Source of the DNA: Flintibacter muris
Lineage (GTDB): Bacteria > Bacillota > Clostridia > Oscillospirales > Oscillospiraceae
Reading direction: 5' to 3'
Length of the DNA stretch: 64,000 bases
NCBI RefSeq assembly: GCF_943192995.1
Contig: NZ_CALPCP010000002.1
Location: 124,001-188,000 of the forward strand
Position 1 is the stretch's first letter. Each line of letters opens with the position of its first letter. Of the stretch, positions 2,522 to 30,232 are shown in pieces. The position numbers were made by a program, and so were the translations under genes. The notes beneath the pieces were generated by a model, which did not search any database, was not told where the DNA came from, and saw only the letters and a program-made list of their open reading frames with translations.

Positions 2522-2601
2522 AGATTACACCGATTCTGATGATTGCTGCAAAATGCGTAATAGAACATTGCTTTCTCTCACGGAAAATAATTTTGGCGCT
2601 G

Positions 2602-2673
2602 CAGGGCGCGGCGACCCCGGCGCGCCATTGGAAAAAGCGTCCGGCCGGCGGCGGGCCGAGTCGTCCCGCCCTG
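2602..2673. repeat. R3 repeat copy
   Basis: CAGGGCGCGGCGACCCCG at the left and CGAGTCGTCCCGCCCTG at the right are imperfect inverted copies. They match the GTAGGGCGGGACG arms of R3 at 41490 and 63200. No coding content. Confidence 0.6.
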
Positions 2674-2728
2674 AAAATTCGGCTGGATTTTCTGAACGTT
2701 GATTCCCGTGAGATTCTTTTGGAAGGTA

Positions 2729-2757
2729 TTGCATATTTTTTTCCTTTATGGTATACT
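2729..2757 (+). promoter_or_regulatory. Sigma-A-type promoter of the SLH surface-protein leader
   Basis: TTGCAT (2729-2734), a 17-nt spacer and TATACT (2752-2757). It gives a predicted start near 2764 and an untranslated leader of about 680 nt that contains the tandem riboswitches. Confidence 0.7.
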
Positions 2758-2939
2758 GTTTCCAGATAAAGTACATAGCTTTTCCATAAAATGGAGATGG
2801 GCCCGGATATAAGGATCGTGTTCCCATGGCACAGATGAAAAAGGAGGCCGTGGGGCTGTATCGGTGAGTTTGCCAGCGCCGGCGCTCAGGCACCGGTGGA
2901 GGGCTGATTCATAAACTGAACTGGAGGGGAGGAAGCGGC

Positions 2940-3001
2940 ATGACCCAATGCAGTCCACCCGGTAATTGACCCGCTGTCACGTGAGCGCCGGTGACAGCGG
3001 G
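2940..3001 (+). other. Possible 9-codon leader ORF followed by an 11-bp hairpin
   Basis: A strong GGAGGGGAGG ribosome site precedes ATG 2940, which opens a 9-residue frame (MTQCSPPGN, stop 2967-2969). It is followed at once by a perfect 11-bp inverted repeat, CCCGCTGTCAC (2970-2980) and GTGACAGCGGG (2991-3001), without a U-run. It lies in the leader ahead of the riboswitches. It may be a leader peptide or an RNA-structure element; function unknown. Confidence 0.35.
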
Positions 3002-3032
3002 AGGTCCGTTTGCTCGGGCAGGCAGGCGTGCC

Positions 3033-3114
3033 GGCAAACCATGGGAAACTGTGGGACGCAAAGCTAAGGGGCTACGGCGCCGGGGGGACCCGGAAGCTAT
3101 GCTCGCCTGGTTGC
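3033..3114 (+). promoter_or_regulatory. Cyclic di-GMP-I (GEMM-I) riboswitch aptamer, copy 1 of 4
   Basis: Contains GGCAAACC, a P2 hairpin CCATGG-GAAA-CTGTGG with a GNRA loop, the invariant GGGACGCAAAGCTA segment, a GC-rich second hairpin and a closing CTGGTTGC. This order is diagnostic of the GEMM-I class that binds the second messenger c-di-GMP. It is followed after 4 nt by the next copy. Confidence 0.9.
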
Positions 3115-3118
3115 ATCT

Positions 3119-3202
3119 GGCAAACCGCAGGAAACTGCGGGACGCAAAACTACGGGACTACGGCGCCGGGAGAACCTCCGGGCGCTACGTTCGCCGGGTT
3201 GC
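3119..3202 (+). promoter_or_regulatory. Cyclic di-GMP-I (GEMM-I) riboswitch aptamer, copy 2 of 4
   Basis: Same architecture as copy 1. The P2 stem is CCGCAG-GAAA-CTGCGG, so the changes from copy 1 keep pairing, which supports selection on structure. It has GGGACGCAAAACTACGGG, with an A where the other copies have G after GCAAA, and a closing CCGGGTTGC. Confidence 0.9.
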
Positions 3203-3206
3203 ATCT

Positions 3207-3290
3207 GGCAAACCACGGGAAACTGTGGGACGCAAAGCTACGGGACTACGGTGTCGGGGGAAACTCCGAACGCTATGTTCGCCGGGTTGC
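3207..3290 (+). promoter_or_regulatory. Cyclic di-GMP-I (GEMM-I) riboswitch aptamer, copy 3 of 4
   Basis: P2 is CCACGG-GAAA-CTGTGG, followed by GGGACGCAAAGCTACGGG and closing CCGGGTTGC. It is nearly identical in length to copy 2 and separated from its neighbours by a constant ATCT linker, which suggests unit duplication. Confidence 0.9.
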
Positions 3291-3294
3291 ATCT

Positions 3295-3401
3295 AGCAAA
3301 CCACAGGAAACTGTGGGACGCAAAGCTGAAAAGGGGGCTAAACCGACGTCACGCTGGGCATTTTGCCCGCCGGAAGCGACGGCATGCCAGCCCGGCCGCC
3401 G
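3295..3401 (+). promoter_or_regulatory. Cyclic di-GMP-I (GEMM-I) riboswitch aptamer, copy 4 of 4 (variant)
   Basis: Starts AGCAAACC with P2 CCACAG-GAAA-CTGTGG and GGGACGCAAAGCTG, so the 5' half is canonical. The second hairpin is longer and different in sequence, and the 3' closing segment reads GCATGCCAGCCCGGCCGCC rather than CCGGGTTGC. This copy is next to the expression platform and is probably the one coupled directly to the switch. Its 3' boundary is less sure than for copies 1-3. Confidence 0.75.
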
Positions 3402-3429
3402 GATACTTTGCATCCGATTTTTTGCAAAG
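3400..3429 (+). promoter_or_regulatory. Candidate riboswitch expression platform (two competing hairpins)
   Basis: CGGAT (3400-3404) can pair with ATCCG (3412-3416), followed by ATTTTTT, a short terminator. Alternatively CTTTGCA (3406-3412), which forms the terminator loop, can pair with TGCAAAG (3423-3429) just upstream of the AAGGAAG ribosome site. The two structures exclude each other, and the first uses bases at the end of aptamer 4. Which form c-di-GMP favours cannot be read from sequence. Confidence 0.5.
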
Positions 3430-3444
3430 AAAGGAAGAATGACT

Positions 3445-6400
3445 ATGACTAAGAGAACATGGAGTGCTCTCAGCAAGCGCGGTCTGGCGCTCTTCCTGGC
3501 TCTGATTATGTGCATGGGCATGCTGCCCCTCTCCGTATTCGCGGAGGAGGCCGCCGTCACTGATGATACCGTCATCAGTGAGAATGTCACCGTGTCTGAT
3601 GACACGGTGAACCCTGTCGATAACCAGGAGGGCCAGGATACTGAGCCTGAACAGTCCGCTGAGAACACCGAGGAACCCAAAGAGGAGGTTGATAACCCCG
3701 CTGAGGAGCCCGAGGCAGAGGGCGAGACCCCCGCTGAGGAGCCCAAGGCAGAGGGCGAGACCCCCGCTGAGGAGCCCAAGGCAGAGGGCGAGACCCCCGC
3801 CGAGGACCCCAAGGCAGAGGGCGAGACCCCCACTGAGGAGCCCAAGGCAGAGAACGAAGACCCCGCCGAGGTGCCCGAGGTGAAGGATGATGACCCCGCC
3901 GAGGAGGAAACCACCGTTCCCCCCGCCAACATGGGCGAGGTGGTGGCCCCCATCGTGGAAGAGGTCAAGAACACCATCACCGAGGCCGCAGAAGCGGTTG
4001 TCGTCCCCGCTGAGGTCCAGGCCTTCCTGGACGCCGTGGCGGCCATTCCGGAGATTACCCCGGAGAACGCCGCTGAGGTGGCTGAGTACGTCTATGGCGA
4101 GGTCTCTGAGCTCTACAAGGCGCTGCTTGGCACCGAATACGAGGAGCGCCAGGATATCCAGAAGGCCGTCGCCAGCTACACCGCCGCTATCGCGGCTGTG
4201 GACGCGGCGCTGGATATGGAGAGTGATGACTTTGCTTATGGCACTCAGTATCAGCCTTATCACAATGCTAAGATTATTGATCAGTCTGGAAGTGCATACC
4301 CGGGGAAAACAAATAACCATGCTACAATTAAGACATTTGTCAATGAGACATGGAATTTCCAGCGTCTCCCGACTAATAGCTATTATGGAAGCCTTTGTGG
4401 TCATTTGATGTTTGTATGCGCCGCCAAGTACTATAATCGTCCATCTGTTAAATCCTACAACAGCACCATAGTACAGAACGACGGCTATACAATTGGCACT
4501 TGGATTGACAATGGTGCTATGCCTCAGATGGATGGCTCTGACTGCCTGCAGTGGAATTTCACCACGTTAAAGCCCGGAACAACTACCGCGACATTAAATT
4601 ATTATGTTAGATTTGATAATCGTTCAACAGCCAGTGGTGGTTGTCCTATATGTGGATGGGGAACTGATGGCTTTAACAACGTAGGAATATACTATACGTA
4701 TCAAGATAACGTTCCTATTCAGGTCTATGCCAGATATACCCTAAACTACAACACCCAGGGTGGTTCTGCGGTTTCAGCAACCACTAAGGACACTATGAGC
4801 ACAAGCGCCACCCTGACTGTCACCAGCGAAGTCCCCACTAAGACAGGCTACAAGTTCCTGGGCTGGGCGGAGACTGCGGACGCTAAGACTGCGCAGTATA
4901 CCGGCGGTGAGTCTATCACTCTGAACTGGTCCGAGGGCCTGGGCAGCAAGGATGCCCCCGTTTCCAAGACGCTGTATGCGGTTTGGGCGGATGACGACAC
5001 CACTTCCCCCACCGCCCCCGAGGCCCCCGAGCGTGTTGACCTGTACGGTATCCTGCGTAACTTCGTTCAGGTGGAGTGCGTGTCTGAGGGCACAGACCTT
5101 CCGCATGAGGCGAAGACCTACTGCACTAATACCAAATCCGTCAATGGCAAGTACGAGGCTGAGATTGGCACTGTCTACCTAGATGGGGCCGACTGGAAGG
5201 TGAACGTAACCCTGAACGGAGATGTCTACGCCGCCATGTACGGCTACGAGCCCAGCTTCGGCACCGGTGTAAAGCACACCTTGGCCAGCGACGAAAGTCC
5301 CACCAAGACCATTACGCTGAAATGGAATGCTACCGATGAAAAGTGGGCCGAGGCCAGTGGTGAGCCAAAGGACACCGTGCTGGCTACCTTCCATGTGGAA
5401 TGCCAGAAAGCTGCAACCTACACCGTCGTATGGAAGGGTGTGGACGAGGATCAAGATACCCCAACTGCAACTTTCCTCCCGTGGACTACGCTGCACAAAG
5501 AAGACAATGTAACCGCTGATACCGAGCCCACGTGGGAAACGGTGAAGGCACAGAGCAATGTGTCTGACCCCAAGCCCTACACCCTGGACGGCGTGACCTA
5601 CAAGTGGACTGGCGAGTGGGACGTGGAATGGAATGCTGATGACACCGTCAAGACCTATAAGGCGAAGTATCAGCCCGTTCAGACACCCAAGGCCCCTGAT
5701 GCTCCCACTGAGCAGGAGGTGAACCGTGAGGTTCGCAACGACGGCAAGGGCAAGTCCGCTGTTGAAGTGTACTGCCAGCCTGGACGGCATCAGGTGGGTT
5801 ACTTCGACTGCTACAATGAAGAAAAGGGAAAGCCTGGCGTCAATATCCATCCTGGCCGTGTTGAGATCGGTGAGGTCAAGGGCGATGCCACGAGCGGCTA
5901 CACCTGTGATGTGACCTTCCTTGCGGAAAAGTATCGGGAAGCTTACAACACCTTGAAGACGGCAAAGCACGACTTGGTGGCTAATGAGGGTAACAAGACT
6001 GTAACCTTCAAGTGGGTCGTCGAGGACGGCAAGGGCGCCTGGAAACTGGCTGACGCTACTCAGGCTCCTGTGAAGTTCTATGTGGAGTGCAAGGCTTCTG
6101 ACGTGAGCATTGAGAAGACGGTTGACAAGATCAGAGTCAATGTCGGCGATACGGTGACCTACACCATCACCCTGAGAAACAATGGCGATGCCGATGCAAA
6201 GAACGTTGTTGTTACCGACAAGCTGAACACCAAGCTGAGCTTTGTGAGCGCGGTGGCTTCCAGTAATGGCACTACCGTCAAGAGCTGGGATGATGTTCCC
6301 AAGGGCAACAAGTATGAAATCGGCACCGTGCCAGCCAAACAGACCGTCACCCTGACCATTGAGGCCAAGGTGATGGAGGCGGGCACAATTAGCAACACCG

Positions 6401-9093
6401 CCTCCTTTGTCGATGCAGACAAGAACGGCGCTGAGGACAGTTCCGACAATGTTACAGCAACCGTTCCCACCGAGCCCGCCAAGCCCGCCATCGCGGTGGA
6501 GAAATCCATCTGGACCGCGGACGGCAGCAAGCAGTTGACTGCCAGCGACAGCATCTCCATGGGCGACAAGGTGCTCTATAAGGTAAAAGTCACCAACAAC
6601 GGCAATGTGAACCTGTGGAACCTGTCTGTTATGGACACCATGGACACCAAGCTGACGCTGGACAGAGCTACCATCCAGGGCACCGGCGCTCCCTCCTGCA
6701 AGGTCTACAACAGGACCGAGACTGAGGGTGAGCTGCTGTACTTCACCTGGAACGGCCAGCTGGCCCAAAACGCCACAGTGGAAGTGAGCTATCAGGCCAC
6801 AGTCACCGGGTATGACGGCAAGCAGCTGAGTAACGTTGCCAAAGCCGGCGCCTATGACTACAACCCCGCTGCGAGAATGCTGAGAAGCAACGTCGACGGT
6901 GAGGGCTCGCTCACTGGCCCCAGCATTACCCCGCCTTCCGGTTCCATTACCCCGGTTGAGCCAAGTGAAGGTGAGAACCGGCCCACAGAGCCCGGCGGCA
7001 ATGTCAGCGGTTCGGGCAGCACGGGTAATCCCCAGAACAAGCCCACCGTGACCTGGCAGGACAAGGACGGCGAGACGTTCTATACTGCGGAAGTTAATCC
7101 GAATGGCACTTACACCAGCGAGCCCGAGGGCACGCCTGAGGCTCCCGAGGGCCAGGAGTTTGACAAGTGGGGCGACCCCGAGACGGACCCTGTCACCGGC
7201 AATGTCACCATCAAGCCGGTCTTTAAGGACAAGGAAGCTGAGAAGCACACCCTGACAATCACCTATGTGATCTCTGAGGGTACGGCTCAGACCCCTGAGC
7301 AGTTCGTGAAAGAGTACGCCAAGGGCGAAGAGTACAGTGAGGGTTCTCCCGCGGTGGAAGGTTATGAGGCTGACAAGGCCATTGTGACCGGCACTATGGG
7401 CGACACCGATGTGGAAGTTACCGTCACCTACACGCTGAAGGAGTATACCATTACCTGGGTGCTGCCCGACGGCACTACGCAGGAAGACACCGTAAAGCAC
7501 GGCGAGACCCCTGTGCCTCCCGCTGGCGATTACACCTGGTCCCCCGAGATTGTCCCCGCCACTGGAGACGCAACTTATACTGGCACCGAGAAGCAGAAGA
7601 CCTTCACCGTGACCTTCGTGGATGGTTTTGACAACACTGTCATTGAAACCCGGGAGAATGTCACTGAGATACCTGCGGACCGTCCCGCGGCTCCTGAGCA
7701 CAGCGGTTATGTCTTCACCGGCTGGACTGTTGGCGCGCCTGATGAGAACGGCGACGTGACCATCACTGCCAACTATACTGTCATCCCGCCCGTTGGCAAC
7801 CGCGTCATCACCATCAACCGCACCCATAACGGTGTGGTGATTGACAGCGTGACGGTCACCGTGCCCCAGGGCACTGGCTACACCGTCACCGGCACTGACG
7901 CTCCTGCCACCCTCGACCGCAGCGGCGACCACTATATCCGCACCGGCGCACTGCCCACAGTGCCCGCCGGCAACGATAGCGTGACTGTCAATGTGGCCTA
8001 CGCCATCGACAACATCGGCGGCGGCCCGGACGGCAGAGAACCCGACAACATCCCTGACAACCAGGAGGTTGTGGTGTACTACCGCTCCAGCAACGAGACT
8101 TACGGCACTGTCGCCAGCAGCTACCAGACCCTGAATCTGGGCACCGCCGGCGCCAGCGGCACTATGGCCCTGAGCAACACCGCTTCCACCACCACTCTGA
8201 GCCGCACCTACTTCAGCAGCTGGGCCCAGGGCAGCACTACCCTGAGCAACAGCGCAGCTCTGGCCTATAACCTTCCCGTTGTGGGCGGCCAGACCTATGA
8301 GGTAGTTGCCAACTTCGGCCGTACCAGCGGTGGCGGCAGCAGCGGCGGAAGCTCCGGCGGAAGCAGCGGCGGCAGCAGTGGCGGAAACACCGGCGGCACC
8401 ACCACCATCGTGGACGGTGAAGTGCCTCTGGCTGGTGACACCCAGCTGAACAAGGAGGACCACTTCGCCTACGTGAGCGGTTATGAGGACGGCACCGTTC
8501 GTCCCAACAACAACATCACCCGCGAAGAGGTAGCCGCCATCTTCTACCGTCTGCTCACTGACGAGTCCCGCGCTATTTACGACACTGACGTCAACGATTT
8601 CAGTGACGTAGCCAGCAGCCGGTGGTCCAACCGGGCCATCTCCACCCTGGCCAACGCGGGCATCATCAGCGGCTATCCCGACGGCACCTTCCTGCCCGGC
8701 CAGACTATCACCCGCGCCGAGTTCGCGGCCATCGCCGCCCGCTTCGACGTTGTGACCGAGAATGTGGAGAACCCCTTCTCCGACACCACCGGCCACTGGG
8801 CTGAGAATCTGATCTCCTTCGCCGCCAGCAAGGGCTGGGTCGGCGGCTACACCGACGGCACCTTCCTGCCCCAGAAGGCCATCACCCGCGCCGAGGCCAT
8901 GACGCTGATCAACAACGTTCTGGACCGCGAAGTGGATGAGGAAGGCCTGCTGGCCGAGGCCAAGCAGTGGCCCGACAACCAGGAGGGCAGCTGGTATTAC
9001 TACGAGGTTCTGGAGGCCACCAACTCCCACGATTACACCCGCCGCAGCGAGGGCAATCTGGTAGAGAACTGGACCGCCATCACTAACGAGTAA
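3445..9093 (+). CDS. Giant SLH-domain surface protein / adhesin
   Basis: An 1882-residue exported protein. The frame is open back to 3010, but that part is the riboswitch leader; ATG 3445 lies 7 nt after AAGGAAG and starts a clear signal peptide (MTKRTWSALSKRG, hydrophobic core, cleavage after VFAEE). Residues about 86-142 are an acidic 11-residue repeat (EEPKAEGETPA). An InlB-type B-repeat lies at about 430-515, two DUF11-like repeats start near 887 and 1014, MucBP-like and further B-repeat-like segments follow at about 1270-1460, a Gly/Ser linker at about 1629-1652, and three SLH domains at about 1665-1882 for attachment to secondary cell-wall polymer. The modular beta-rich stalk and wall anchor point to an adhesin or S-layer-associated protein. 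Control by c-di-GMP fits a role in the switch to surface life; the ligand is unknown. Confidence 0.93.
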   Translation: MTKRTWSALSKRGLALFLALIMCMGMLPLSVFAEEAAVTDDTVISENVTVSDDTVNPVDNQEGQDTEPEQSAENTEEPKEEVDNPAEEPEAEGETPAEEPKAEGETPAEEPKAEGETPAEDPKAEGETPTEEPKAENEDPAEVPEVKDDDPAEEETTVPPANMGEVVAPIVEEVKNTITEAAEAVVVPAEVQAFLDAVAAIPEITPENAAEVAEYVYGEVSELYKALLGTEYEERQDIQKAVASYTAAIAAVDAALDMESDDFAYGTQYQPYHNAKIIDQSGSAYPGKTNNHATIKTFVNETWNFQRLPTNSYYGSLCGHLMFVCAAKYYNRPSVKSYNSTIVQNDGYTIGTWIDNGAMPQMDGSDCLQWNFTTLKPGTTTATLNYYVRFDNRSTASGGCPICGWGTDGFNNVGIYYTYQDNVPIQVYARYTLNYNTQGGSAVSATTKDTMSTSATLTVTSEVPTKTGYKFLGWAETADAKTAQYTGGESITLNWSEGLGSKDAPVSKTLYAVWADDDTTSPTAPEAPERVDLYGILRNFVQVECVSEGTDLPHEAKTYCTNTKSVNGKYEAEIGTVYLDGADWKVNVTLNGDVYAAMYGYEPSFGTGVKHTLASDESPTKTITLKWNATDEKWAEASGEPKDTVLATFHVECQKAATYTVVWKGVDEDQDTPTATFLPWTTLHKEDNVTADTEPTWETVKAQSNVSDPKPYTLDGVTYKWTGEWDVEWNADDTVKTYKAKYQPVQTPKAPDAPTEQEVNREVRNDGKGKSAVEVYCQPGRHQVGYFDCYNEEKGKPGVNIHPGRVEIGEVKGDATSGYTCDVTFLAEKYREAYNTLKTAKHDLVANEGNKTVTFKWVVEDGKGAWKLADATQAPVKFYVECKASDVSIEKTVDKIRVNVGDTVTYTITLRNNGDADAKNVVVTDKLNTKLSFVSAVASSNGTTVKSWDDVPKGNKYEIGTVPAKQTVTLTIEAKVMEAGTISNTASFVDADKNGAEDSSDNVTATVPTEPAKPAIAVEKSIWTADGSKQLTASDSISMGDKVLYKVKVTNNGNVNLWNLSVMDTMDTKLTLDRATIQGTGAPSCKVYNRTETEGELLYFTWNGQLAQNATVEVSYQATVTGYDGKQLSNVAKAGAYDYNPAARMLRSNVDGEGSLTGPSITPPSGSITPVEPSEGENRPTEPGGNVSGSGSTGNPQNKPTVTWQDKDGETFYTAEVNPNGTYTSEPEGTPEAPEGQEFDKWGDPETDPVTGNVTIKPVFKDKEAEKHTLTITYVISEGTAQTPEQFVKEYAKGEEYSEGSPAVEGYEADKAIVTGTMGDTDVEVTVTYTLKEYTITWVLPDGTTQEDTVKHGETPVPPAGDYTWSPEIVPATGDATYTGTEKQKTFTVTFVDGFDNTVIETRENVTEIPADRPAAPEHSGYVFTGWTVGAPDENGDVTITANYTVIPPVGNRVITINRTHNGVVIDSVTVTVPQGTGYTVTGTDAPATLDRSGDHYIRTGALPTVPAGNDSVTVNVAYAIDNIGGGPDGREPDNIPDNQEVVVYYRSSNETYGTVASSYQTLNLGTAGASGTMALSNTASTTTLSRTYFSSWAQGSTTLSNSAALAYNLPVVGGQTYEVVANFGRTSGGGSSGGSSGGSSGGSSGGNTGGTTTIVDGEVPLAGDTQLNKEDHFAYVSGYEDGTVRPNNNITREEVAAIFYRLLTDESRAIYDTDVNDFSDVASSRWSNRAISTLANAGIISGYPDGTFLPGQTITRAEFAAIAARFDVVTENVENPFSDTTGHWAENLISFAASKGWVGGYTDGTFLPQKAITRAEAMTLINNVLDREVDEEGLLAEAKQWPDNQEGSWYYYEVLEATNSHDYTRRSEGNLVENWTAITNE
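3703..3867 (+). repeat. Five tandem 33-nt coding repeats
   Basis: Five in-frame copies of a 33-nt unit encode the acidic Pro/Glu-rich stalk after the signal peptide. Copies 1-3 are nearly identical; copies 4 and 5 diverge. Length variation by slippage is likely. Confidence 0.85.
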
Positions 9094-9110
9094 TTCCTAA
9101 ATACGGAGAA

Positions 9111-9147
9111 AACGGGAGAGAGCCTGACGGCTCTCTCCCGTTTTTAT
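9111..9147 (+). terminator. Rho-independent terminator after the SLH protein
   Basis: AACGGGAGAGAGCC and GGCTCTCTCCCGTT form a 14-bp stem with a TGAC loop, followed by TTTTTAT. The A-rich 5' flank means it could also serve the convergent XpaC-like gene. Confidence 0.88.
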
Positions 9148-9166
9148 ATATCCCGCAACGCTCTGC

Positions 9167-10369
9167 TTACAGTCCCAGCGTGAGTCCCTCCTGGTCGGAC
9201 AGGCCGTCCTTGGCCAGCATGCGCTCCAGTACCTCCACATCGGTGGTGATATCCATGGCGTCCCCCTGAAAAAGGAGGTCCAGCTGTTTTTCAAAGCCCT
9301 CTACCACCTTATCCATCATCCCCTCAATGCGGGACATAGCGGCGGTGATGTTTTGGCCGGAGACCTCCTGATCCTCCAGCTGGCCGTAGGCCCGAAGGAT
9401 TTTCAGCGTGGTGGGCAGGTAATAGCTCAAAAAGCTGTGAAGCTGGGCGGCCTTCTCTGGATGGGTCTTTTGATAGTCCAGAATTTTGGCGGTAATTACA
9501 CCGATCCGGTCAATCTGAGCGGACATCTTCTCGTTGTCAATCGCGTTGTTGACGGCTCTGATCTCCGCCAGGATGGCGTTTTCATCCTCCTTGGGCGGGG
9601 GCGGCGGGGCGGCATGTTCCCGCTTGGACGGCTCGGCGATTCCGTCTCCGGAGAGGACCAGCCGGTCGCCGCCGTAGTCCAGAAAGCCCTGGGGGAAGAT
9701 GCCGTCGTCCAGCATGTCGGCCAGATCGTCCCGCACCTTGCTGGGGGACAGGCCGGTGGCCGAGGCCAGAGCGGAGACAGACACCGAACTCTGCCGGCCG
9801 ATCATGGCCAGGTAATTTCGATAGCGCCGGGCCTGCTTCCGCTTGCGCAGGCCGGCCCACAGAGAGCCCAGTCCGCCGGCGGCGATGCAGGGCAGAACCA
9901 TCAGGCCCATAAGCTCTTCCAGAAAAAAGGCCATATCGCCATTGAAGAGCCAGAAAAAAGGTTCGCCCAGGCTGGCGATAAAGGCCACCAGGCAGCCGGC
10001 CGCAGTGGCGCCTCCGGCGATGGCCCAGTTCTTTCCCTTTTTGTCCAGCTCAGAGATCAGGTCCCGGTCCTTGCCCTTTTTTTGCTTGGGTTTGAGAGGG
10101 GTCTGCGCCCGAACGGGCTCCTCCCAGGCAGGAGCGGCCTGGGAGGTCTCCTCCCAGGAGGGACTCTCCCGAAAGGTCCGGGCTCCCACCTGTCCCTGAG
10201 CGTTCTGCCCCTCATAGTAGGGGTGGCGGCCCCTCTTCTTGCCGCTGAGCAGCTTCAATACAATCATCAGCACACCCACCGGGGCGGCGATACCGGTAAA
10301 AATCAAACCCAGGGCAATCAACCAATAAAGCCCGTCGCCATTACCTTTTTGTCCCTGATAGTCAGACAT
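9167..10369 (-). CDS. XpaC-like (5-bromo-4-chloroindolyl phosphate hydrolysis family) membrane protein
   Basis: A 400-residue protein beginning MSDYQGQKG at 10369; an upstream frame extension to 10489 lacks a ribosome site. Two hydrophobic segments lie near residues 15-40, with another pair after about 135. A basic/Pro-rich cytoplasmic linker lies between them, followed by a winged-helix-like segment (VSVSALASATGLSPSKVRDD). The C-terminal 130 residues match the XpaC family: HPEKAAQLHSFLSYYLPTTL, then FEKQLDLLFQGDAMDITTD and VLERMLAKDGL. The family's biochemical role is unclear; in many Firmicutes it is paired with TelA, which is not adjacent here. It is divergent from the VanW gene. Confidence 0.82.
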   Translation of the reverse strand: MSDYQGQKGNGDGLYWLIALGLIFTGIAAPVGVLMIVLKLLSGKKRGRHPYYEGQNAQGQVGARTFRESPSWEETSQAAPAWEEPVRAQTPLKPKQKKGKDRDLISELDKKGKNWAIAGGATAAGCLVAFIASLGEPFFWLFNGDMAFFLEELMGLMVLPCIAAGGLGSLWAGLRKRKQARRYRNYLAMIGRQSSVSVSALASATGLSPSKVRDDLADMLDDGIFPQGFLDYGGDRLVLSGDGIAEPSKREHAAPPPPPKEDENAILAEIRAVNNAIDNEKMSAQIDRIGVITAKILDYQKTHPEKAAQLHSFLSYYLPTTLKILRAYGQLEDQEVSGQNITAAMSRIEGMMDKVVEGFEKQLDLLFQGDAMDITTDVEVLERMLAKDGLSDQEGLTLGL

Positions 10370-10721
10370 TGTCCTACCCCCATATCTCTGCCACGCGGCA
10401 GCACTGTTACTTACTATAGCAGATAATCCCCAAAATGGAATTGATTTTTTCTTAAAATTCGGTAAAGAAATATCGGCTTTATATATCATAGCGCACCAGA
10501 GGGAAAAAGTAAATGGCCCGCTTTGCTTTTTGCAGGAAAATAGCCACAGAGCTGGTTGGATTTTTCAGGGGAGTTGTAACTATTCTGTAATTCTTTCAAA
10601 GTCCCCTCGTGCTATAATATAAAATTGGTTCACAGTGTAAAGCTGAACATACATATCAACACTCACACGAGTTTCGTGCGGCAACGGTCCTGATCTGGGC
10701 CGGACAGGAGGAACAACAGCG
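10370..10721. other. Divergent intergenic region
   Basis: 352 bp between the divergent XpaC-like and VanW genes. It holds the plus-strand promoter listed next and AT-rich DNA close to the XpaC-like start. No ORF, repeat or RNA gene is recognised. Confidence 0.5.
10591..10618 (+). promoter_or_regulatory. Probable promoter of the VanW gene
   Basis: A consensus -10 TATAAT (10613-10618) with a weak -35 (TTCTTT, 10591-10596; 16-nt spacer). The leader to ATG 10722 is about 100 nt. Confidence 0.5.
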
Positions 10722-12551
10722 ATGGAAGGACAGCGCGTAGCAAAAAAAGGGGGGGGCGGCGGTAAGCTGCCTTGGATCATCACCGGCGCGGTGGCGGGAG
10801 TGCTGGCGGCGGCCTACATTGGCACATGCGTCTGGGCATCCGGGCGGGATACCATTCTGCCCAACGTGTCGGTGGCCGGGATCGATGTCTCTGGCCTGAC
10901 GGTGGAGCAGGCCCGGGATACCGTCAGGACTGCGGCGGATCAGGCGGGCCAGGACGTTACCCTTACCCTGGCCTATGAGGACCTGGAACAAAGTCTGAAC
11001 TGCGCCGGCTTGGAGCTGGACGTAGGGCAGGGGGTGGAGGCGGCCCAGCAGGTCGGCCATGGGAACTTTTTTACCGGCGGCCCTCAGCTGGTGGGGCATA
11101 TGCTGGGCATGTCCAGCCAGGTGCCGCTCCCCCTGGCGGAGGAAAATTTCGCCTTGGATGACTTTGTTTCAGACATGGAGCAGGCTGTGAAAGACGCCAC
11201 AGTAGACCACGGCTATCAGGTGGATGGGGACCGGCTGTTGATGACCAAGGGAGCCCCGGTTACCACCATCAACTGGGATCAAACGCTGGGCACCGTTCGG
11301 GAGACCGCGCAGGAGGCCGTTGAGGAGCGGCTGAGCGGCGGGGAGGGGCCGGTGGAAAAGACCATCACCCTGTCCGCCTCCCAGAGCCAGCAGCAGGACC
11401 CGGACTTTGAGGCCATCCACCGGGAGGTGTACACCGAGGTCAAGGATGCCTCCCTGGACCTGGAGTCTATGGAGATCACCGACCACACCGTGGGCCTTGA
11501 CTTCGACGTTCAGGAGCTGAAAGAGGCCTACTACGCGGCCAGGAGCGGTGAGACCTTCTCCATCCCCCTCACCGTCACCCAGCCCAAGGTGACCAAGGAG
11601 GACCTGGGGGGCCAGCTGTTCAAGGACCTGCTGGGCGAGGGTACCACCACGGTGTCCGGCTCCGCCAACCGGAAGCACAATGTGCAGCTGTCCGCTGAGG
11701 CGTGCAACAACGTGATTCTCCTCCCCGGCGAGGAGTTCTCCTACAACAATACTACCGGCAGCCGCACCGCCGCCAAGGGCTATAAAAATGCCCCTACCTA
11801 TGTGGCCGGCCAGTCGGTGGACGATATCGGCGGCGGTATCTGCCAGACCTCCTCCACCATCTATTACGCCGTTCTCCACACCGCCCTGGAGGTGGTGGAG
11901 CGCCATGACCACCAGTTCAACACCGGCTATGTGACCTTGGGGATGGACGCCACCGTCTATTTCGGCAGCTTGGATTTCCGTTTCCGGAACAATACTGACT
12001 ACCCCGTTAAAATTGTCACCAACAGCTATGATTCCAACGGCAAGCGCTACCTGAACGTACAAATCTACGGCACCAACCCGGAGGGCATCTACGCCGTTCC
12101 GGACAGCGTCACCTATGACAAGGTGGCCCCCACCACCGTCTATGTTCCGGACGAGAGCGTCCCCCGGGGCACCTTGGTGCTGGACCGGAAGCAGTACGCC
12201 TACACCGGCTGGTCCGCCCACACCTACCGCTATATCTACGACAAGGACGGAAACCAGATCGAAAAGCAGGACATGGGCACCAGCAAATACAACATGCGGC
12301 CCAACTCCTACCACTATAACCCCGCCGACGGCGACCTCTCCACCTGGGTGGACGGCAAGCCCGGCGGAACCACTACCACCGATCCCGGGACAACAGCGCC
12401 GGAGAATCCTGATACCACAACCCCTGCCGATCCCGGCACAGGCACATCGGATGAAACTGAACCTCCCGGTGCGGAGGACCAGGGACAGCAGACGCCCCCC
12501 GCCTCTGACACGGGGATTGCCCCTATAGACCCTAATATGGCGGCGGGGTGA
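10722..12551 (+). CDS. VanW-family exported protein with peptidoglycan-binding-like domains
   Basis: A 609-residue protein. A Gly/Lys-rich start is followed by one membrane segment (about residues 18-38), so it is an anchored extracytoplasmic protein. Residues about 50-290 carry two PG-binding-4-like repeats (NVSVAGIDVSGLTVEQA...). The VanW domain, at about 310-450, holds EEFSYNNTTGSRT, GGGICQTSSTIYYA and ERHDHQF. The tail is a Thr/Pro/Asp-rich linker (about 545-600). The family is named from a vancomycin-resistance gene cluster but is widespread and not itself a resistance determinant; a cell-wall role is inferred. AGGAGG precedes ATG 10722. A DUF2461 gene follows 59 nt downstream. Confidence 0.9.
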   Translation: MEGQRVAKKGGGGGKLPWIITGAVAGVLAAAYIGTCVWASGRDTILPNVSVAGIDVSGLTVEQARDTVRTAADQAGQDVTLTLAYEDLEQSLNCAGLELDVGQGVEAAQQVGHGNFFTGGPQLVGHMLGMSSQVPLPLAEENFALDDFVSDMEQAVKDATVDHGYQVDGDRLLMTKGAPVTTINWDQTLGTVRETAQEAVEERLSGGEGPVEKTITLSASQSQQQDPDFEAIHREVYTEVKDASLDLESMEITDHTVGLDFDVQELKEAYYAARSGETFSIPLTVTQPKVTKEDLGGQLFKDLLGEGTTTVSGSANRKHNVQLSAEACNNVILLPGEEFSYNNTTGSRTAAKGYKNAPTYVAGQSVDDIGGGICQTSSTIYYAVLHTALEVVERHDHQFNTGYVTLGMDATVYFGSLDFRFRNNTDYPVKIVTNSYDSNGKRYLNVQIYGTNPEGIYAVPDSVTYDKVAPTTVYVPDESVPRGTLVLDRKQYAYTGWSAHTYRYIYDKDGNQIEKQDMGTSKYNMRPNSYHYNPADGDLSTWVDGKPGGTTTTDPGTTAPENPDTTTPADPGTGTSDETEPPGAEDQGQQTPPASDTGIAPIDPNMAAG

Positions 12552-30081: not shown

Positions 30082-30126
30082 AAAAAATCAGAACATCCGC
30101 AAGTGATGCCATGCGGATGCTCTGAT
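30082..30126 (-). terminator. TPP-riboswitch terminator (expression platform)
   Basis: On the minus strand ATCAGAGCATCCGCA and TGCGGATGTTCTGAT form a long stem with one G-U/mismatch position, followed by TTTTTTAT. It lies between the aptamer and the first gene, so ligand-dependent termination is expected. Confidence 0.88.
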
Positions 30127-30132
30127 ACACCT

Positions 30133-30232
30133 CAGAATGTACTCCCTACGCTGGCATTACCCAACAGGTTCAAAGGGTCAAAGGCCTAAAGCCTTACTCT
30201 CAGCTGCGCGGCAGCCCCCCTGGCTATTCACT
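30133..30232 (-). promoter_or_regulatory. TPP (THI-box) riboswitch
   Basis: The minus strand reads CAGGGGGGCTGCC, GCAGCTGAGAGTAAG, ACCCTTTGAACCTG, TTGGGTAATGCCAGC and GTAGGGAGT in that order. CTGAGA and the ACCC/GAACCTG segment are invariant thiamine-pyrophosphate contacts. It should shut off the four-gene importer when TPP is abundant. Confidence 0.96.

Follow-up and report, generated by a model that had tools for sequence, protein, structure and literature searches.

Tandem c-di-GMP-I riboswitches have been described as sets of complete switches rather than as groups of aptamers with a common output; we cite the papers named here and below from excerpts. One survey counts 347 c-di-GMP-I doublets and 12 triplets (PMC9481103), and its Table 1, as we interpret it, places these tandems under multiple expression platforms. 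In a second source c-di-GMP tandems appear as complete riboswitches arranged one after another (PMC12452182), and the Bc3-5 triplet of B. thuringiensis consists of three complete riboswitches, each with its own terminator, that switch ON (PMC4759541). Two aptamers on one platform are the arrangement that the survey gives for the glycine and guanidine-II riboswitches (PMC9481103). The excerpt of that survey names no c-di-GMP-I array of four or five units, and our search of the open-licence literature found no four-unit array of this class. A first, sequence-only reading of the locus discussed here had stated that no well-studied four-unit array was known, which agrees with the excerpts of both surveys (PMC9481103, PMC12452182). 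c-di-GMP-I tandems themselves are known; what is new is an array with several aptamers on one shared, apparently translational platform.

The window, by which we mean the whole stretch of 64,000 nucleotides of Flintibacter muris DNA that was analysed, carries four c-di-GMP-I aptamers in a single leader: unit 1 at 3033-3114, unit 2 at 3119-3202, unit 3 at 3207-3290 and a terminal unit 4 at 3295-3400 (+ strand, as are all positions below unless noted). Their RF01051 scores of 54.7, 65.3, 63.1 and 48.3 bits all exceed the gathering score of 35 bits, with the last one lowest, as the sequence-only reading had predicted for such a covariance-model search; the 63.1 bits of unit 3 come from the genome search (58.9 when it is scored alone), and unit 4 scores 43.1, 45.5 or 48.3 bits depending on the scan. 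When the whole window was scanned directly, two RF01051 matches were listed; the genome search gave four, and the difference is apparently due to the dropping of overlapping matches in the former: neighbouring matches share 10 nt (3109-3118, 3197-3206 and 3285-3294), and together the four span 3023-3403. These scores support the class and the tandem layout first proposed, and the P2 stems, their GAAA loops and the constant ATCT linker also read as they had been given, with a paired, GAAA-capped P2 in all four units and a gap of 4 nt throughout. Only the description of units 1-3 as near-identical was too strong. They are certainly alike, with 68-73 of 82-84 aligned columns identical in comparisons among them; unit 4 shares 66-70 of 82-84 with them, which puts the overall likeness among the units at 79-88% of aligned columns. 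Unit 4 measures 105 nt against the 82-84 nt of the others, and differs mainly in a longer P3 and in having A for G at position 20. That changed specificity base was absent from the earlier reading, as were a shared 3' module, a 5' hairpin and a short upstream ORF. A chance origin of the array is excluded by these scores together with 43 leaders that have the 3' module in common.

This module follows the last unit with the layout CGGAU-A-CUUUGC-AUCCG-N-GCAAAG-AAAGGA. Its hairpin S1 (3400-3416) pairs CGGAU at 3400-3404 with AUCCG at 3412-3416 around the loop ACUUUGC, and this loop holds the switching strand CUUUGC (3406-3411), the 5' strand of a second helix, S2. The complementary S2 3' strand, GCAAAG at 3424-3429, covers the first 2 nt of an extended Shine-Dalgarno sequence, AGAAAGGA (3428-3435), which we take to match the end of the 16S rRNA. 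Across 44 modules loop 1 measures 1-4 nt and loop 3 measures 4-21 nt (a loop 3 of 1-3 nt was permitted in the search, and none so short occurs among the 44), and by these lengths S1 and S2 can form an H-type pseudoknot in 44 of 44. When terminal unit and module are aligned together over 26 rows, 95.8% of cells are paired and 15 pairs are changed on both sides; none of 500 shuffles does as well, and slid controls reach 29.5-40.2%. S1 itself is paired in 99.2% of cells. Most of the covariation signal in these rows comes from the aptamer, and within S1 a two-sided change is confined to the fifth pair, which in 44 modules is U-A in 23, U.G in 9, C-G in 7 and G-C in 1, and is unpaired in 4. S2 is constant throughout the 26 rows, in part an effect of the search pattern, which prescribed it; of the five matches of module class that the model recovered without the exact pattern, GCAAAG is kept in four and lost in G030:C114. 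We also note two leaders whose module has diverged, its fifth S1 pair being G-C and not U-A, one with a single aptamer (L281, from genome G277) and one with a widely spaced aptamer (L282, from G080).

How widespread is this arrangement? Among 400 family genomes, 14 contain the exact module pattern, with 32 occurrences in total against 0 for a reversed-pattern control. When terminal unit and module are combined in one covariance model, 37 places in the 400 genomes score at or above 86 bits, and the next scores 79.5. Of the 43 module-bearing leaders, 36 (among them the window's) come from family genomes and 7 from other records; the set includes near-copies (G070 C1/C12, G071 C8/C18, G030 C14/C87 and G351 C1/C3), and overlap between the two sets was removed for G070 only. 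One unit is present in 2 leaders, two in 21, three in 13, four in 5 and five in 2, so that 41 of the 43 have between two and five. Four-unit arrays stand in an uncultured Oscillospiraceae bacterium (L126), a Clostridiales MAG (L075) and a Bacillota MAG (L138), and a five-unit array in an uncultured Clostridia MAG (L137). The records scanned hold at least 120 triple-core stretches, at least 10 of them with three or more aptamers by pattern; 8 of these 10 have the module, L050 stops just past its last core, and L087 lacks the module. Among the 120 triple-core matches listed, the other 110 hold no array of three or more aptamers by pattern. Viral contigs yielded 14 stretches with the triple-core pattern, none with two or more aptamers by the same measure. 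A wider spread of the module was considered and set aside: a looser pattern matched in 79 of 394 order-level genomes, with varied letters that look mostly like chance. L087 itself, a Deltaproteobacteria MAG, has by pattern alone a four-unit c-di-GMP-I array with A, G, G and A at position 20 and no 3' module, an apparently independent case which suggests that long arrays arose more than once.

With 10 nt of overlap between matches and linkers of 4 nt, an expression platform could not fit between the units. Could they nonetheless be four independent riboswitches in series, each with a decision point of its own, and pseudo-cooperative together as in the B. thuringiensis triplet? This is the published view of c-di-GMP-I tandems (PMC9481103, PMC12452182, PMC4759541), and the likeness is real, as Bc3-5 also consists of tandem c-di-GMP-I units before surface-protein genes. 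However, each unit of Bc3-5 has its own terminator (PMC4759541) and the surveyed doublets and triplets, which are likewise c-di-GMP-I in tandem, have multiple platforms (PMC9481103), whereas the window has one shared module at the end. Its units are set 4 nt apart with no terminator-like site between them, and on the + strand of 2600-3600 S1, together with the six T that follow it, is the sole terminator-like site. We therefore regard four serial switches as most improbable. Nor is that one site typical of the family: a T-run after S1 (at least 5 T in 8 nt) is found in 2 of 32 modules, those of the window and of L192 (the latter by eye). An intrinsic terminator was rejected as the general output on this count, and the common output is apparently translational rather than transcriptional. 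The sequence speaks for a single platform, and so does the recurrence of the module behind the final unit of 43 leaders, an arrangement closer to the glycine riboswitch, in which several like aptamers also feed one platform; there the aptamers are two and of another class, and here they number up to five, with cooperativity, and the steep or graded response that the sequence-only reading had suggested, only candidate properties. That a multi-aptamer array acts here through one shared translational platform is, in our judgement, highly probable.

What might the aptamers do to this platform? In the window, CUUUGC together with the AUCC that follows it is the complement of the aptamer core GGACGCAAAG except at 1 of its 10 bases. 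More generally, the switching strand CUUUGCRUCC matches the core at 9 of 10 bases where R is A (27 of 43 leaders, the window's among them) and at 10 of 10 where R is G (16 of 43), with computed energies of -11.8 and -17.6 kcal/mol, respectively, for the strand:core duplex, against -3.5 for the S1 hairpin and -4.2 for the S2 hairpin. The exact GGACGCAAAG core is present in units 1, 3 and 4 of the window and not in unit 2, and 34 of the 43 leaders have at least one. As an invariant partner the core had to be dropped, being exact in only 24 of 43 terminal units and 41 of 70 others; in three terminal units, moreover, GACGCAAAG has changed to the CACAAAG form with no matching change in the switching strand. 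Capture by the core is thus without covariation support. In unconstrained folds the switching strand pairs with array cores at a probability above 0.5 in 13 of 32 leaders; in the window it pairs with the Shine-Dalgarno side (0.90) and not with any core. Nested folding did not yield a direction for the switch, and was discarded for that purpose: across 32 leaders mean Shine-Dalgarno openness is 0.60 in the whole leader and 0.65 in the module alone, lower in 14 of 32, which is not a significant shift (p = 0.12). In these folding runs L213 was reduced to 3 units and L215 to 1, owing to long inserts.

The best overall explanation, to which we give a probability of roughly 0.47, is that the array likely acts through one shared 3' pseudoknot, predicted to cover the ribosome-binding site, and that filling with c-di-GMP would turn translation of the surface protein down, as an OFF switch. 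We posit that any empty unit, through its core (three of the four units have GGACGCAAAG), would capture CUUUGCRUCC and leave the ribosome site open; with all units filled, the switching strand would be freed, S1 and S2 would form, the ribosome site would be covered and translation would drop. Because c-di-GMP binding would take the cores out of competition for the switching strand, OFF is the simplest reading, and we hold this direction, taken alone, at marginally better than even odds. If all four sites, independent and equal, had to be filled, the midpoint would by calculation move up 5.3-fold and the 10-90% range would narrow from 81-fold to 29-fold.

The opposite direction deserves a hearing. 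c-di-GMP usually raises the level of sticky surface proteins, and a switch ahead of an adhesin would be expected to follow. The same platform could then work as an ON switch, in which S2 stands in the empty state and is broken as a filled aptamer and S1 rearrange, so that c-di-GMP frees the ribosome site. The B. thuringiensis triplet before surface-protein genes is ON (PMC4759541), and the window's unconstrained fold, with its switching strand on the Shine-Dalgarno side, is also on the side of this reading. However, the loop lengths that allow S1 and S2 to coexist in 44 of 44 modules mean that stabilising S1 would favour S2 and not break it, and core pairing, which competes in 13 of 32 leaders, is a feature of the empty state. 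The anatomy of the shared platform fits OFF at least as well as the ON expected for an adhesin, and we consider the ON switch possible, though doubtful.

The second question is what the last unit senses. We number its specificity base as position 20 by equating it with RF01051 column 11, a register inferred from Vc1/Vc2 numbering (Vc1 G12/C36/A39; PMC4744006) and chosen because it is the only one that places C at 36. In this register the predicted ligand contacts G20, A47 and C92 are present in all three of units 1-3, and unit 4 has A, at 3295, where the G20 contact would be. Set against RF01051 as a whole, the units are alike in that each exceeds the gathering score and has a GAAA-capped P2, and in the three ligand-contacting bases of units 1-3; they are different in that four stand in one leader, with no platform between them and A20 in the last. 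The same polarity runs through the module-bearing arrays. G is found at position 20 of the first unit in 40 of 41 arrays, and the last unit has G in 14, A in 18, C in 6 and U in 3; 27 arrays shift from G to another base between first and last unit and 1 does the reverse (sign test p = 2e-7, with arrays counted as independent regardless of kinship). Published mutations suggest what such a change may mean: in a GEMM-Ib switch, A20 to G converts cGAMP selectivity to c-di-GMP selectivity (PMC6456294), and mutation of G20 in Vc2 lowers c-di-GMP binding 30,000-fold (work cited in PMC4744006). A last unit without G at position 20 is on these results likely to have an altered pocket.

It is tempting to go further and suppose a mixed-ligand array, with units 1-3 sensing c-di-GMP and unit 4 sensing 3',3'-cGAMP, or both. 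Indeed, A or G at nucleotide 20 decides between cGAMP and c-di-GMP in GEMM-Ib (PMC6456294), the c-AMP-GMP riboswitch that likewise has A there, and A in 18 of 41 last units, against G in 40 of 41 first ones, fits. Several observations weigh against it, however. cGAMP riboswitches can bind c-di-GMP too (PMC9262584), and C or U occupies position 20 in 9 of 41 last units. Outside these arrays, 29 of the best family matches (some of them in spaced pairs) have G in 20 and A in 9, and since A is also common there, we regard the A20 unit 4 as a variant within RF01051 as scored. GGDEF proteins are present in 15 of 15 module-bearing genomes searched, and in the 31 of 46 listed GGDEF domains that were read from these genomes (the window's and 14 relatives), the Hypr position holds Asp in 30 and Asn in 1, with no Ser or Thr; no Hypr GGDEF is thus found among those 31, and the three domains found in the window's genome all have Asp. 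A second ligand for unit 4 seems to us distinctly improbable.

Where did the extra units come from, and do they matter? In a tree of 107 units the window's units 1-3 form one clade (99/97) with unit 4 outside it, and with the 3' ends cut the same clade keeps 44% SH-aLRT only. The separation points to growth of the array through local duplication of its upstream units. Terminal units also cluster, with 9 changes on the tree against 33 when labels are shuffled, and more weakly with 3' ends cut (17 against 32.6); the tree is built on few columns, and L102_1of4 and L232_1of4, on very long branches, are likely to be spurious pattern matches. Likely local duplication of this kind would suit a neutral account in which the extra units are by-products of tandem duplication and the terminal unit alone is functional. 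If so, the decay of spare units would appear upstream, yet G20 is kept in 40 of 41 first units against 14 of 41 terminal ones, and we find it very unlikely that the upstream units are neutral.

The leader has structure on its 5' side as well. A short ORF, MTQCSPPGN (2940-2969), with GGAGGGGAGG as a ribosome-binding site ahead of it, ends directly before an 11-bp GC-rich hairpin at 2970-3001. Counted by eye, 20 of 32 leaders, that of the window among them, have an upstream ORF bearing Pro-Pro, and a hairpin of at least 6 pairs, not always alike, precedes unit 1 in 31 of 32. In the window the loop strand GCGCC (2985-2989) of this hairpin could pair with GGCGU (3025-3029), just ahead of unit 1, and we propose a second, covarying pseudoknot here as a candidate. 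Permutation tests across 31 leaders are consistent with it: the loop:flank pairing of each leader with its own locus is matched on energy by 0 of 5000 permutations, and its Watson-Crick runs by 1 and 6 of 10000. Runs of at least 5 pairs occur in 15 of 31 loci against 7.1 expected; the window, whose run consists of four Watson-Crick pairs and one G.U, is not among the 15. Between loci the loop and flank vary as GCGCC/GGCGC, ACGCC/GGCGU, GUGCC/GGCAC and CUGUGCC/GGCACAG. No Rfam family matches 2750-3040 at E up to 1. Perhaps the Pro-Pro ORF provides a leader-peptide input.

After the array lies the giant secreted surface-protein gene (3445-9093, 1,882 aa, with an alternative ATG start at 3439) that the sequence-only reading had placed there. 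Its product bears out that assignment, with a signal-peptide-like start, three SLH domains, two DUF11 domains and Listeria-Bacteroides (List_Bact) repeats; by its predicted domains this should be a surface protein, and an adhesin role is a candidate. The genome has a second such locus, where two units stand ahead of another SLH giant of 1,910 residues; the two giants have a near-identical start and the same last 42 residues. At that second locus (L007) an AP2-domain-like ORF lies directly upstream at 4239-4778 (PF00847 at 25.6 bits, below the cut-off of 33.3), and similar coding sequence is seen by eye upstream of several sister arrays. Also at L007, no stop codon interrupts the reading frame of the short upstream ORF across the two aptamers and on into the giant gene (4794-10862), and on paper a fused protein could result. 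Of the 20 downstream proteins that are complete, 16 were scanned (L177, L214, L224 and L298 fall outside the scan); SLH is found in 6, and an LPxTG-like tail, by eye, in 10. The SLH motif, an orphan RNA, is likewise described ahead of SLH-protein genes in Clostridia (PMC6429828). Elsewhere in the window, on the - strand at 30126-30231, lies a TPP riboswitch (RF00059 at 57.5 bits, gathering score 54.3).

Taken to its furthest point, the shared platform leads to what could be called a counting riboswitch. Up to five aptamers would share one switching strand and translation would flip only when all are filled; the last unit, its specificity base no longer held to G, would be a distinct hub that links the array to the Shine-Dalgarno pseudoknot, perhaps with a second signal of its own to read; pseudoknots would stand at both ends, and the Pro-Pro leader peptide would add an input from translation. 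As a complete scheme we think this unlikely. If the shared platform is true, two to five contiguous aptamers on one platform would be a second RNA route to a sharp or shifted response, and the different array lengths found before like genes would offer a natural series in which to relate aptamer number to threshold and steepness. It would also mean that, in related Clostridia, giant surface proteins of the SLH and LPxTG types are tied to c-di-GMP by one recognisable leader.
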